From Microvirga rosea (lineage in GTDB: Bacteria; Pseudomonadota; Alphaproteobacteria; Rhizobiales; Beijerinckiaceae): a stretch of 64,000 nucleotides of DNA. The translations under genes and the position numbers were made by a program. The DNA lies in NCBI RefSeq assembly GCF_020595095.1, contig NZ_JAJDOP010000001.1:62001-126000 (forward strand). Direction: 5' to 3'. This document shows, piece by piece, positions 60,985 to 64,000 of this stretch; positions within the stretch are counted from its first letter, which is position 1, and every line of letters begins with the position of its first letter. The notes under the pieces are model-generated. The model had not been told where the DNA came from, did not search any database, and worked only from the letters and a program-made list of their open reading frames with translations.

Positions 60985-63900
60985 ATGCCGCCTTCTTTAC
61001 TTCGCCTTCTGACCGCAACAAGTGCCGTGGCACTTGGATTGACCGGTGCTTTTGCGCAGGTCCCCGTGCCGCGTCCGACGCCGGTGGCCGGATCCATCGT
61101 GGCCGCCAAGGGCGGCGAGGAATTACGATTCGTTCGCGAGAATCAGTGGCGCGCCGCCGAGATCCGCCAGGATGTGGTCGGAGGCGACGTCCTGCGCACC
61201 AACGCCATCGGCAATCTGGCGATTCTGTTCGCGGACCAAACGCAGATCCGCGTCGGCAAGAATTCCACCCTGATCGTCAATGACGTTGCCAGCAGCGCCA
61301 ACGACAAGACGGATCTGACCCTTCAGGCCGGGACGATCTGGGCCCGCGCCGCCCGCGGCGGATCAGGCGTCGACGTGAAAACGCCGGCCGCGGTGGCGGC
61401 CATCCGAGGGACCGACTGGTCCCTTTCGGTGGATGGCTCGGGAAAGACGGCTCTGGTCGTCCTGGAAGGCGTGGTCGAACTGCGCAACGCGCAGGGATCC
61501 GTCACCGTTCGGCAGGGCGAGGGCGCCGTCGCGGCCCTCGGGCAGGCGCCGACCAAATACGTTCTGGTGAATTCCAACGATCGTGAGCAGATGCTCTTCT
61601 ACATGACGCTGCGCGATGCGTTTTCGTCTCAAACGACCTCGGTCCTGACCGGGCCGGCCATGCGGGCGGAGCGCGCCCGGATCGAGGCGATCCCGCCGCA
61701 GGCCCGCCGGGCAGAGGACTGGCTCAGCTTTGCGGAAATCGCCCTTTATCTCGATGGGCGGGCTGCTGCGGAGCAGGCCCTTGCGGAAGCACGGAACCGC
61801 GGCCTGAACCAGTCGCAGCGCGCACGCGCCGACCTTGTCGAGGGCGTTCTCGCAAGTCTTCAGCGGCGGTGGCAGGATGCCGCCGTTCTCTACGGCCGGG
61901 CCGAGCGGGGCGTTGATGCCAAGCGCCGGGTGATCGCCTCGTATGGTCGCTACATCGCCCTGTCGCTCGCCAATCCGAAACAGGTCTACACGGAGCCCAA
62001 GGGTTCCCCGAACGATCCGCTTGCAGCCCTCGCCCATGCCTATGTGGTGGCATTCCGGCAGGATCTGACCGCCGCGGCCGAGGTCATCAAGGAAGCGGAG
62101 AAGCGCTTCCCCAACGATACACGCATTGCCGTGACGTCGGCGCAGATCGCCTTCGCGCTCAATCGCCGCGAGGAGATGCGCGCTTCGATCGCCAGGGCCA
62201 AGGCCATGGATCCGGATGATCCGGATGTGATCATCGCCGACAGCAGCATTCGCGGTCAGATCGACGGGGAATACAAGTCCGCCGTCGAGAATTTGCGCCG
62301 CGCCACGACCATCGCGCCGGGCCATTCCGATCTTTGGAACACGATCGGCCTGTTCGAATCCACCGGGGATTCCCCGATCGCGGCGGAACAAGCCCTTCGC
62401 CGGGCCATCGCGACCGATCCGGACAGCCCGGTCGCCTATGCCAATCTGGCCATCCTGCTGCTCGATCAGAGCAGGGTCGAGGAAGCCCGGGTCCTCATCG
62501 ACAAGGCGCTCGCGATCGATCCGGCCTTCAGCACGGGCTATATCGCCCTTGGGCGTTACCTGCTCCAGACCGGGGAAACCGCGAAGGGCCTCGAGGCCAT
62601 CCTGGCCGGTTCCACGGCCAATCCCGCCTATTCCCAAGGATTGCTCGCCACGGCGATCGCCTATTACCAGAATGGGGACGACGAGCTGGCCATCCAGGCC
62701 CTGGACAATGCCGACAGGCTCGATCCCAATGATCCGATCGTGTCGATCGCCCGCACGGCGGTCGCCCTCGATCAATACCGCGCCGACGAAGCCGTTCTGG
62801 CCGCGCGGGAATCCGTGCGCCGATTCCGCCAAAGAGGCGGCGACTTTGCCGGACTTGCGGTCAACAAGCAGGCGGGTTCGTACCCGGCCGCGGCCTATCG
62901 CTTTATCGACCTGAACGAGTGGGCGCGCTTTTATGGCGACCGGGTCTTCGACCCCTTCACCGCATCGAGCTATTTCGATCAGGCGGCCGCACGCCGACCC
63001 AATATTCTCACGACCCGGCCGAGCATCTCCTCCCTGGAGAACGACAGCACGGATCTGACCGCCTTCAACCTGACGGTCCAGGGGCTGTTCTTCGACCCGC
63101 TCGCGGTCTCGAGCCGCGTGCGCCGACAGGATCTGCTGCGTCGCCCGTTCGTGGATGCGGAAGTGGGCGGCAGCCTGTTCGTCAAGGACAACCGGGTAGG
63201 CTGGGGGGCGGACGCGACCGTCCAGGGTTTCTCGAACGAGCCTCTCCCGACCTCCTTCTCGCTCTCGGCCGGGCGAACCAAGATCGACGCGCGTGAAGCC
63301 ATCGACAGGGAAGCCGCCGATACCGCGTCCCTCTTCCTCGGCATCGCTCCTTCCGCAGCGGATCGATTCCTGATCTTTGGTTCGGCGGCGAAAGTCGAGC
63401 CTCCGCTGATCCGCGTGGATCGGCCGACGCGCTTTTACACCAGCGATCAGGAGCTCACCTCCATGCAGGCTGGTGCCGGCTGGAGCCACAACTTCGCCGA
63501 CCGGAATGTGCTGACGGCGGCCGTTTACGCCAATCGGGGCCTCGACCGGCGCAACTTCGAGTCCGTGAACGCCGAGATTCCTCCTCTGATCCTCGCCGAG
63601 CGGCAGTGGTCCAGCACCCGGACCGAGGGAGTCGTGGCAGCCGTCAACCATTCGGTCGCGTTCAACGACTTTACCCTCCGGTACGGCTATGAGGGCCAAT
63701 TCGGGCGTACCTTCGCGGGCGTATTCGGACGCGGCGTGGTGATGAGCGCTCTCTCGCGAGAAAGCCAATCGGCCGATACCGCGGACCGGACCGAAGCCGA
63801 TTTCAACGCCAACCGTCTCTACGCGGACCTGTTCTGGAGACCGTCCGACAAGTTCGAGGCGCAGGCCGGCGTGCAACGATCCTTCGTGGACGTGGAGCGG

Positions 63901-64000
63901 CAGCGCTCCGACACGCTGGTGTCCCCGCGCGTCGGTGTCGCTTTCTCGCCCGTGGAAGGACATTGGCTGCGTGCGGCCTACCGGCAGGACGGTATCCTTC
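60985..64000 (+). CDS. Exported FecR-TPR protein with probable beta-barrel C-terminus (3' end beyond window)
   Basis: The frame stays open from the ATG at 60985 to the window end, 1005 codons. A signal peptide (LLRLLTATSAVALGLTGAFA, cut after AFAQ near residue 25) is followed by a FecR-type domain (about 38-190, with GGDVLRTNAIGNLAILFADQ, AAIRGTDWSLSVDGSGKTAL and VVLEGVVEL). A tetratricopeptide array follows (about 230-620, for example DLWNTIGLFESTGDSPIAAE and ALRRAIATDPDSPVAYANLA). From about 690 to the end, alternating hydrophobic strands (GWGADATVQGFSNEPLPTSF, FTLRYGYEGQFGRTFAG) look like an outer-membrane barrel. The ligand or export partner is unknown. Codon use matches its neighbours. 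Confidence 0.85.
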   Translation, partial: MPPSLLRLLTATSAVALGLTGAFAQVPVPRPTPVAGSIVAAKGGEELRFVRENQWRAAEIRQDVVGGDVLRTNAIGNLAILFADQTQIRVGKNSTLIVNDVASSANDKTDLTLQAGTIWARAARGGSGVDVKTPAAVAAIRGTDWSLSVDGSGKTALVVLEGVVELRNAQGSVTVRQGEGAVAALGQAPTKYVLVNSNDREQMLFYMTLRDAFSSQTTSVLTGPAMRAERARIEAIPPQARRAEDWLSFAEIALYLDGRAAAEQALAEARNRGLNQSQRARADLVEGVLASLQRRWQDAAVLYGRAERGVDAKRRVIASYGRYIALSLANPKQVYTEPKGSPNDPLAALAHAYVVAFRQDLTAAAEVIKEAEKRFPNDTRIAVTSAQIAFALNRREEMRASIARAKAMDPDDPDVIIADSSIRGQIDGEYKSAVENLRRATTIAPGHSDLWNTIGLFESTGDSPIAAEQALRRAIATDPDSPVAYANLAILLLDQSRVEEARVLIDKALAIDPAFSTGYIALGRYLLQTGETAKGLEAILAGSTANPAYSQGLLATAIAYYQNGDDELAIQALDNADRLDPNDPIVSIARTAVALDQYRADEAVLAARESVRRFRQRGGDFAGLAVNKQAGSYPAAAYRFIDLNEWARFYGDRVFDPFTASSYFDQAAARRPNILTTRPSISSLENDSTDLTAFNLTVQGLFFDPLAVSSRVRRQDLLRRPFVDAEVGGSLFVKDNRVGWGADATVQGFSNEPLPTSFSLSAGRTKIDAREAIDREAADTASLFLGIAPSAADRFLIFGSAAKVEPPLIRVDRPTRFYTSDQELTSMQAGAGWSHNFADRNVLTAAVYANRGLDRRNFESVNAEIPPLILAERQWSSTRTEGVVAAVNHSVAFNDFTLRYGYEGQFGRTFAGVFGRGVVMSALSRESQSADTADRTEADFNANRLYADLFWRPSDKFEAQAGVQRSFVDVERQRSDTLVSPRVGVAFSPVEGHWLRAAYRQDGIL

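Follow-up and report, generated by a model that had tools for sequence, protein, structure and literature searches.

Within a 64,000-nucleotide stretch of Microvirga rosea DNA, here called the window (assembly GCF_020595095.1, contig NZ_JAJDOP010000001.1, contig positions 62001 to 126000; genome of 5.0 Mb in 38 contigs), an open reading frame (ORF) that begins at position 60985 on the plus strand encodes a large exported protein. We propose that this gene specifies an NsrA-type outer-membrane receptor that senses a signal outside the cell and is paired with its own CHASE2-domain nucleotide cyclase, and we assign to this reading, the mechanism included, a probability of about 80%. It builds on the anatomy of the protein, the homology of the two genes to nsrA and cyaK, their coupling, and, by prediction and comparison, the type of the barrel, all of which are established below. 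Coordinates are window positions on the plus strand unless stated otherwise; in the numbering of this locus in our set (L002), a position equals the window position minus 60000.

The ORF ran unbroken through the end of the window. A preliminary description of this DNA had noted that the gene continues past that point, and this was confirmed by continuing the contig: the frame closed at 64623, 623 bases beyond the window, yielding a complete receptor of 1,212 amino acids. A signal peptide (60985 to 61056, residues 1 to 24), read by eye from the translation, was recognized by its hydrophobic N terminus and an A-x-A motif, with cleavage near AFA/QVP. It is followed by a FecR domain (61186 to 61479, residues 68 to 165; PF04773 with E values of 7.9e-15 for the whole protein and 1e-15 for the domain alone) and by a presumably periplasmic array of TPRs or helical repeats (61615 to 63108, residues 211 to 708), as assigned from Pfam TPR models and predicted helices. 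Many TPR models matched, most clearly in the region from residue 341 to residue 587. The C-terminal part, a predicted barrel of the TonB-dependent-receptor type (residues 722 to 1212), begins at 63148, continues through the window end at 64000, and extends to 64620. The chain terminates in -ARF, i.e., with a terminal phenylalanine.

The AlphaFold2 model of the mature receptor, calculated with 61 homologues, reached a predicted local distance difference test (pLDDT) value of 85.1 and a predicted template modeling (pTM) score of 0.76. It placed the beta strands of the FecR head at mature residues 45 to 169, the helical array at 187 to 684, and a strand-rich part at 698 to 1187, in which 22 strands were counted (two of three residues left out). 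The preliminary description had named a C-terminal part that is not a barrel in structure prediction as the result that would speak against it; the model contains this 22-strand part at the predicted place. Pfam, sequence reading, and AlphaFold2 thus uphold its view of an exported protein in which a FecR domain, a TPR array, and a predicted outer-membrane beta-barrel are joined in one chain. A coincidental ORF could be excluded because 80 homologous loci were retrieved, 77 of which matched over nearly the full length. RNA families near the receptor gene were not detected at gathering thresholds. The open frame of 866 amino acids that runs antisense to the receptor gene (61363 to 63963; 1,091 amino acids in L002) does not look like a gene; GC-rich codon use would account for it.

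From residue 27 to its C terminus, the receptor aligned co-linearly with NsrA of Sinorhizobium meliloti ml28, showing 43% identity over 1,201 columns. Based on the ORF and this homology, we annotated it as an nsrA-like gene (60985 to 64000 in the window, ending at 64623). On pSymB of S. meliloti ml28 (CP140934.1), nsrA and then cyaK are annotated side by side, and the same order and strand were found here. One nucleotide after the receptor stop, a second gene with a GTG start codon encodes a protein of 657 amino acids (64625 to 66598, contig positions 126625 to 128598, wholly past the window). According to its ORF and Pfam matches, it is a cyaK-like gene that combines a CHASE2 domain (PF05226; 149.8 bits, E value of 1.3e-43) with a class III cyclase domain (PF00211; 69.7 bits, E value of 3.2e-19), and its product shares 50% identity over 634 columns with CyaK of S. 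meliloti ml28. The linked CHASE2 cyclase that the preliminary description had proposed to look for is therefore present just beyond the window.

The AlphaFold2 model of the cyclase (pLDDT of 85.2, pTM of 0.60) consists of a long N-terminal helix, an alpha/beta CHASE2 domain, three long helices, and the cyclase domain. This layout fits an inner-membrane protein whose CHASE2 domain lies in the periplasm, where FecR would be. Nearly all of the 53 matches from a sequence search of the PDB fell on the cyclase domain, two de novo beta-trefoils being weak exceptions, and none of the 53 fell on the CHASE2 part.

To describe the family, 360 relatives from a scan of named genomes were considered, and the best 80 loci were kept; three (L041, L062, and L065) are cut by contig ends, and the remaining 77 are nearly full length. 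With L065 left out because it lacks its 3' end, 72 of 79 loci have a CHASE2 cyclase gene that directly follows the receptor gene in the same orientation. Receptor alignments (A3 and A5) comprised the window protein and 60 of the 80 loci, giving 61 rows, and the cyclase alignment (A6) comprised the window cyclase, 61 of the 72 paired ones, and seven others. The nearest relative among the best 80 was found in Microvirga puerhi (87%). The gene is patchy: it was detected in 6 of 119 genomes of the family and class-wide in 3 of 385, own genome included in each, and both counts may be low, with up to five candidates scored per genome in the former and two in the latter. A protein search of plasmid records matched 97 records, of which 84 covered at least 80% of the query and 76 belonged to Sinorhizobium or Ensifer. 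In Microvirga zambiensis (L036, 2098 to 9654), two NsrA-like genes stand in tandem, followed by one cyclase gene.

The structural matches of the receptor model pointed to one class of barrel. All of the 50 rows listed by Foldseek (of 567 matches, with E values up to 0.001) and all of the 50 listed by VIA-align (of 970 chains aligned; Z scores of 20.1 to 23.6 with 394 to 503 residues aligned) were TonB-dependent transporters, among them FhuA, FecA, FoxA, and BtuB. It should be noted that these rows cover mostly mature residues 606 to 1188 and hardly probe the FecR and TPR folds. Alignment of the barrel profile with six Escherichia coli TonB-dependent transporters by hhalign resulted in a probability of 97.7% (E value of 1.7e-12, 260 columns), with the C termini in register. 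Against PDB sequences, the barrel profile matched only BtuB1 (E value of 1.3e-4) and another TonB-dependent receptor (0.096); when the whole receptor was used for the search, the 60 listed of 109 matches fell on the TPR part. In Pfam, PF00593 scored 57.6 bits on the exact barrel piece of 503 amino acids and matched 14 of the 61 members, and it was missed on the full-length receptor and on a piece of 589 amino acids. The S. meliloti barrel matched just OMP_b-brl_3 (E value of 0.025). Because the Pfam barrel match is unstable, the assignment rests on structure and on hhalign with its controls.

These controls bear on the function that the preliminary description had favored, that of a surface assembly or export machine. 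An export porin of the PgaA kind would transport a polysaccharide or a filament, and its FecR domain would bind a polymer of the surface; PgaA shares with the window receptor the plan of TPRs followed by a barrel. The NCBIfam model PGA_TPR_OMP does match the receptor, but just on the TPRs (residues 427 to 511) and with 29.3 bits versus a cutoff of 366.65. By profile, the two barrels are unrelated: hhalign gave a probability of 0.07% for PgaA and likewise 0.07% for general porins, the control profiles being shallow (one PgaA sequence and three porin sequences). In the large majority of the loci counted above, the gene paired with the receptor encodes a cyclase, and the gene pair here consists of an nsrA homologue followed by a cyaK homologue. 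Eight neighbors, four on each side of the pair, were scanned with Pfam, and none of them contained a polymer-synthesis domain or a sigma factor (including the extracytoplasmic function type), so the linked sigma factor sought in the preliminary description was not found there. An export or filament machine was rejected on the grounds of barrel type, cyclase partner, and the lack of polymer-synthesis genes among these neighbors, and we consider it hardly credible. What stands of the earlier interpretation is the anatomy and the cyclase; assembly or export of a polysaccharide or filament is not supported.

A barrel of this type could also mean that the receptor still works as a TonB-dependent transporter and that the cyclase merely reads out uptake. 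One plasmid record (H13) names a homologue TonB-dependent receptor, and an NCBIfam TonB-receptor model weakly matches the last 117 residues (17.7 bits versus a cutoff of 700). However, Pfam scans of the whole receptor and of its N-terminal pieces returned no model for a plug domain; FecR and helices precede the barrel instead, and the full-length receptor profile aligned with TonB-dependent transporters in the barrel columns only. Transport is therefore very unlikely in our view. We conclude that the predicted barrel is of TonB-dependent-receptor descent and is without a detectable plug, and such a loss of the plug argues for a receptor rather than a pump. In the open-licence papers searched, none was found to link NsrA and TonB in this way, the sole co-mention concerning FecA, and none was found on NsrA in Microvirga.

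Conservation differs along the receptor chain. Mean pairwise identity across the 61 rows was highest in the FecR domain (0.69), followed by the TPR array (0.51) and the barrel (0.39), and within the barrel, it was 0.29 for the presumed outer loops (long-loop side) and 0.51 for the periplasmic short-turn side. Such a gradient would be expected if the inner contact stayed constant and the outer one varied. For the NsrA-type receptor and its cyclase, we infer the following chain of events, which extends to ligand, relay, FecR-CHASE2 contact, nucleotide, and output. A ligand would bind the variable outer loops of the barrel, and the resulting change would travel through the periplasm along the TPR array until it reached FecR. 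The FecR head would touch CHASE2, the periplasmic domain of the inner-membrane cyclase that the adjacent gene encodes, and would thereby start or stop the synthesis of cAMP (or cGMP). The next step might fall to a regulator that binds cyclic nucleotides and is not Clr. Such a scheme would provide NsrA with a signal path from the outer membrane to the cyclase; the anatomy predicts that the FecR head touches CHASE2 and that the barrel needs no TonB. A TonB-receptor barrel without a plug adds to the interest of the system, as does the FecR-CHASE2 pairing as a relay that is open to test.

The proposed path resembles the FecA-FecR-FecI system and other TonB-dependent cell-surface signaling, in which a barrel of the TonB-dependent-receptor type and FecR pass an outside signal inward; its mechanism is described in PMC11637429. 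Unlike in that system, barrel and FecR are part of one exported chain with TPRs between them, a plug was not detected, and a CHASE2 cyclase serves as partner. A separate inner-membrane anti-sigma FecR is not what the gene encodes, as its FecR domain shares the exported chain with the barrel.

Linkage of FecR and CHASE2 extends beyond this pair. The own genome contains two CHASE2 and two FecR matches, which form two neighboring pairs, i.e., both CHASE2 genes are FecR-linked. The second pair (L010, 8041 to 10546; contig C37, 78041 to 80546; minus strand) comprises an exported-looking FecR protein of 192 amino acids and a CHASE2 cyclase of 653 amino acids, and a TPR or barrel match was absent from its Pfam scan. 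In S. terangae, a FecR ORF lies beside all three CHASE2 matches, one being its nsrA. For a broader view, one CHASE2 locus was chosen by hand in each of 60 genomes of the phylum, among the matches listed and mostly away from contig ends. The best-scoring locus was usually taken, and a lower one was taken for G555 and G638; the better match of G638 has FecR close by, yet this genome was counted as a miss. FecR ORFs were detected by a purpose-built hidden Markov model, and all nine that were checked exceeded the Pfam FecR cutoff. A FecR ORF was present within about 6 kb in 37 of the 60 loci and at less than 200 nucleotides in 28, whereas about 0.6 would be expected by chance.

Gene linkage of this kind is already in print for other bacteria. 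In Burkholderia contaminans and Burkholderiales, a LysM-FecR protein is encoded in an operon with a CHASE2 histidine kinase (PMC5192318); a FecR protein stands directly beside a CHASE2 sensor enzyme as it does here, but LysM replaces the TPR-barrel part, and a kinase replaces the cyclase. Clusters of Campylobacterota are described as containing a CHASE2 adenylate cyclase, a FecR outer-membrane protein, a TPR protein, and a phosphodiesterase (PMC9239204). They share cyclase, FecR outer-membrane protein, and TPR with the Microvirga pair and differ from it in that TPR is listed as a separate protein and a phosphodiesterase is included. In magnetotactic bacteria, the gene reported to follow that of a TPR protein codes for a CHASE2 cyclase (PMC4439547). 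Tentatively, and with somewhat less than even odds, NsrA-type receptors may represent a FecA-FecR-like relay whose parts, a barrel without a plug, a TPR arm, and a FecR head, have merged into a single chain that now feeds a second messenger. FecR would then be a general periplasmic partner of CHASE2 sensor domains, with exchangeable anchors (barrel, LysM, or adhesin-type) and outputs (cyclase or kinase).

The same diversity of anchors could be explained if the receptor monitored the state of the cell envelope, the barrel serving as an anchor and the TPR-FecR arm reporting membrane distance or barrel assembly to CHASE2 with no diffusible ligand involved. Four of the nine CHASE2-linked FecR neighbors that were scanned carry, instead of a barrel, LysM, a peptidoglycan-binding domain (two proteins, one just below the cutoff), a cadherin-like domain (one), or Ig/RTX-type domains (one). 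The presumed outer loops change fastest, which would be expected for ligand binding, and S. meliloti cells respond via NsrA to extracts and purified protein that are added from outside (PMC7529298). An envelope sensor is thus possible but unlikely.

As for the ligand of the proposed receptor, the S. meliloti system offers the closest comparison. Its response to nodule extract or purified uL2 is reported to need both NsrA and CyaK and to raise cAMP-dependent expression (PMC7529298 and PMC13001267). The former paper describes uL2 proteins as activating S. meliloti via NsrA and CyaK and proposes an electrostatic fit of uL2 to 57 acidic outer-loop residues. With family and partner shared, i.e., a full-length co-linear receptor and an adjacent CHASE2 cyclase in the same order and strand, the Microvirga receptor could serve plant interaction by sensing a signal like that of S. 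meliloti NsrA, a basic protein of which the ribosomal protein uL2 is an example. By our count, the outer half of NsrA from S. meliloti ml28 contains 60 acidic residues and has a net charge of -37, but that of the window receptor contains 41 and has a net charge of -6. Across 32 rows from Rhizobium, Sinorhizobium, Mesorhizobium, and allies, the outer-half charge had a median of -30 (range, -50 to -14), compared with -11 (range, -22 to 6) in 32 rows from Microvirga, Bosea, Methylocystis, and others. Part of this difference is general because the TPRs of the two groups differ likewise (medians of -18 and -11, respectively). With overlapping ranges and rows related by descent, the group difference is no more than suggestive. 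The near-neutral outer face of the window receptor speaks against an acidic uL2-binding face as a family-wide feature.

Symbiosis genes were looked for in the same context. Among eight genomes searched, nodA was strongly matched in M. vignae, S. terangae, and R. mongolense, which served as positive controls. The search returned no nodA from the other five, namely the own genome and those of M. puerhi, M. lupini AT3.9, M. pudoricolor, and M. flocculans. The failure to find nodA in a draft genome is no proof of its absence because it was also not found in M. lupini AT3.9 (L033), and we take Microvirga lupini to be a nodule symbiont. A nifH model gave matches solely below its cutoff. Because the own genome yielded no nodA match, the idea of a symbiosis gene by descent was rejected. 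Given the outer-face charge and the nodA result, recognition of an NsrA-like signal for plant interaction is improbable, and the ligand and output of the Microvirga pair probably differ from those of S. meliloti.

Several observations weigh against the proposal of an NsrA-type receptor that signals through its adjacent cyclase. The FecR region of the receptor model is of moderate confidence, with block pLDDT values of 64 to 86. Seven of the 79 receptor loci (L038, L046, L052, L062, L087, L095, and L097) have other genes in place of an adjacent downstream CHASE2 cyclase, and the pairing is therefore not absolute. For five of these, the same strain or species has a coupled copy (L044 for L038 and L052, L036 for L046, L041 for L062, and L070 for L097), and uncoupled NsrA-like receptors may use a cyclase encoded elsewhere. 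Conversely, a FecR neighbor was undetected in 23 of the 60 CHASE2 loci. The S. terangae counterpart of SMc02177, identified by gene order, adjoins a CHASE2 cyclase, and SMc02177 itself presumably adjoins cyaD1 in S. meliloti. This S. meliloti FecR protein is reported as required for infection control and as dispensable for plant signal perception (PMC5498481), and a FecR gene beside a CHASE2 cyclase is therefore not always part of the receptor for the signals tested. This finding also lowers the odds that FecR is a general partner of CHASE2.

The last of these points concerns the regulator Clr. A search of the own genome with the Clr-like gene of S. terangae yielded matches of 24 to 33% identity at most. 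We take this query to be a Clr ortholog from its place beside a CHASE2 cyclase and a FecR gene and from the gene order of S. meliloti. Because the own genome was without a close Clr match, the S. meliloti output pathway seems not to be conserved here. The pair occurs in a host that gave no match to nodA and no close one to Clr, and the symbiotic use in S. meliloti is therefore probably one use of a wider module.

The eight neighbors of the pair comprise a fatty-acid-type regulator, a glutamine amidotransferase, a TerB-like protein, a receiver-domain protein, a cation efflux protein, an M10-type RTX protein with a cadherin domain, HemY, and one protein without matches. The receiver-domain ORF (PF00072; 60366 to 60833) has the orientation of the receptor gene and ends shortly before it; nine Microvirga loci have a similar ORF upstream. 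Beyond the pair, L002 7749 to 10259 encodes, in the opposite orientation, a large protein with RTX and cadherin domains and an M10 serralysin C-terminal domain, which is like some of the FecR-linked adhesin-type proteins in domain kinds only.

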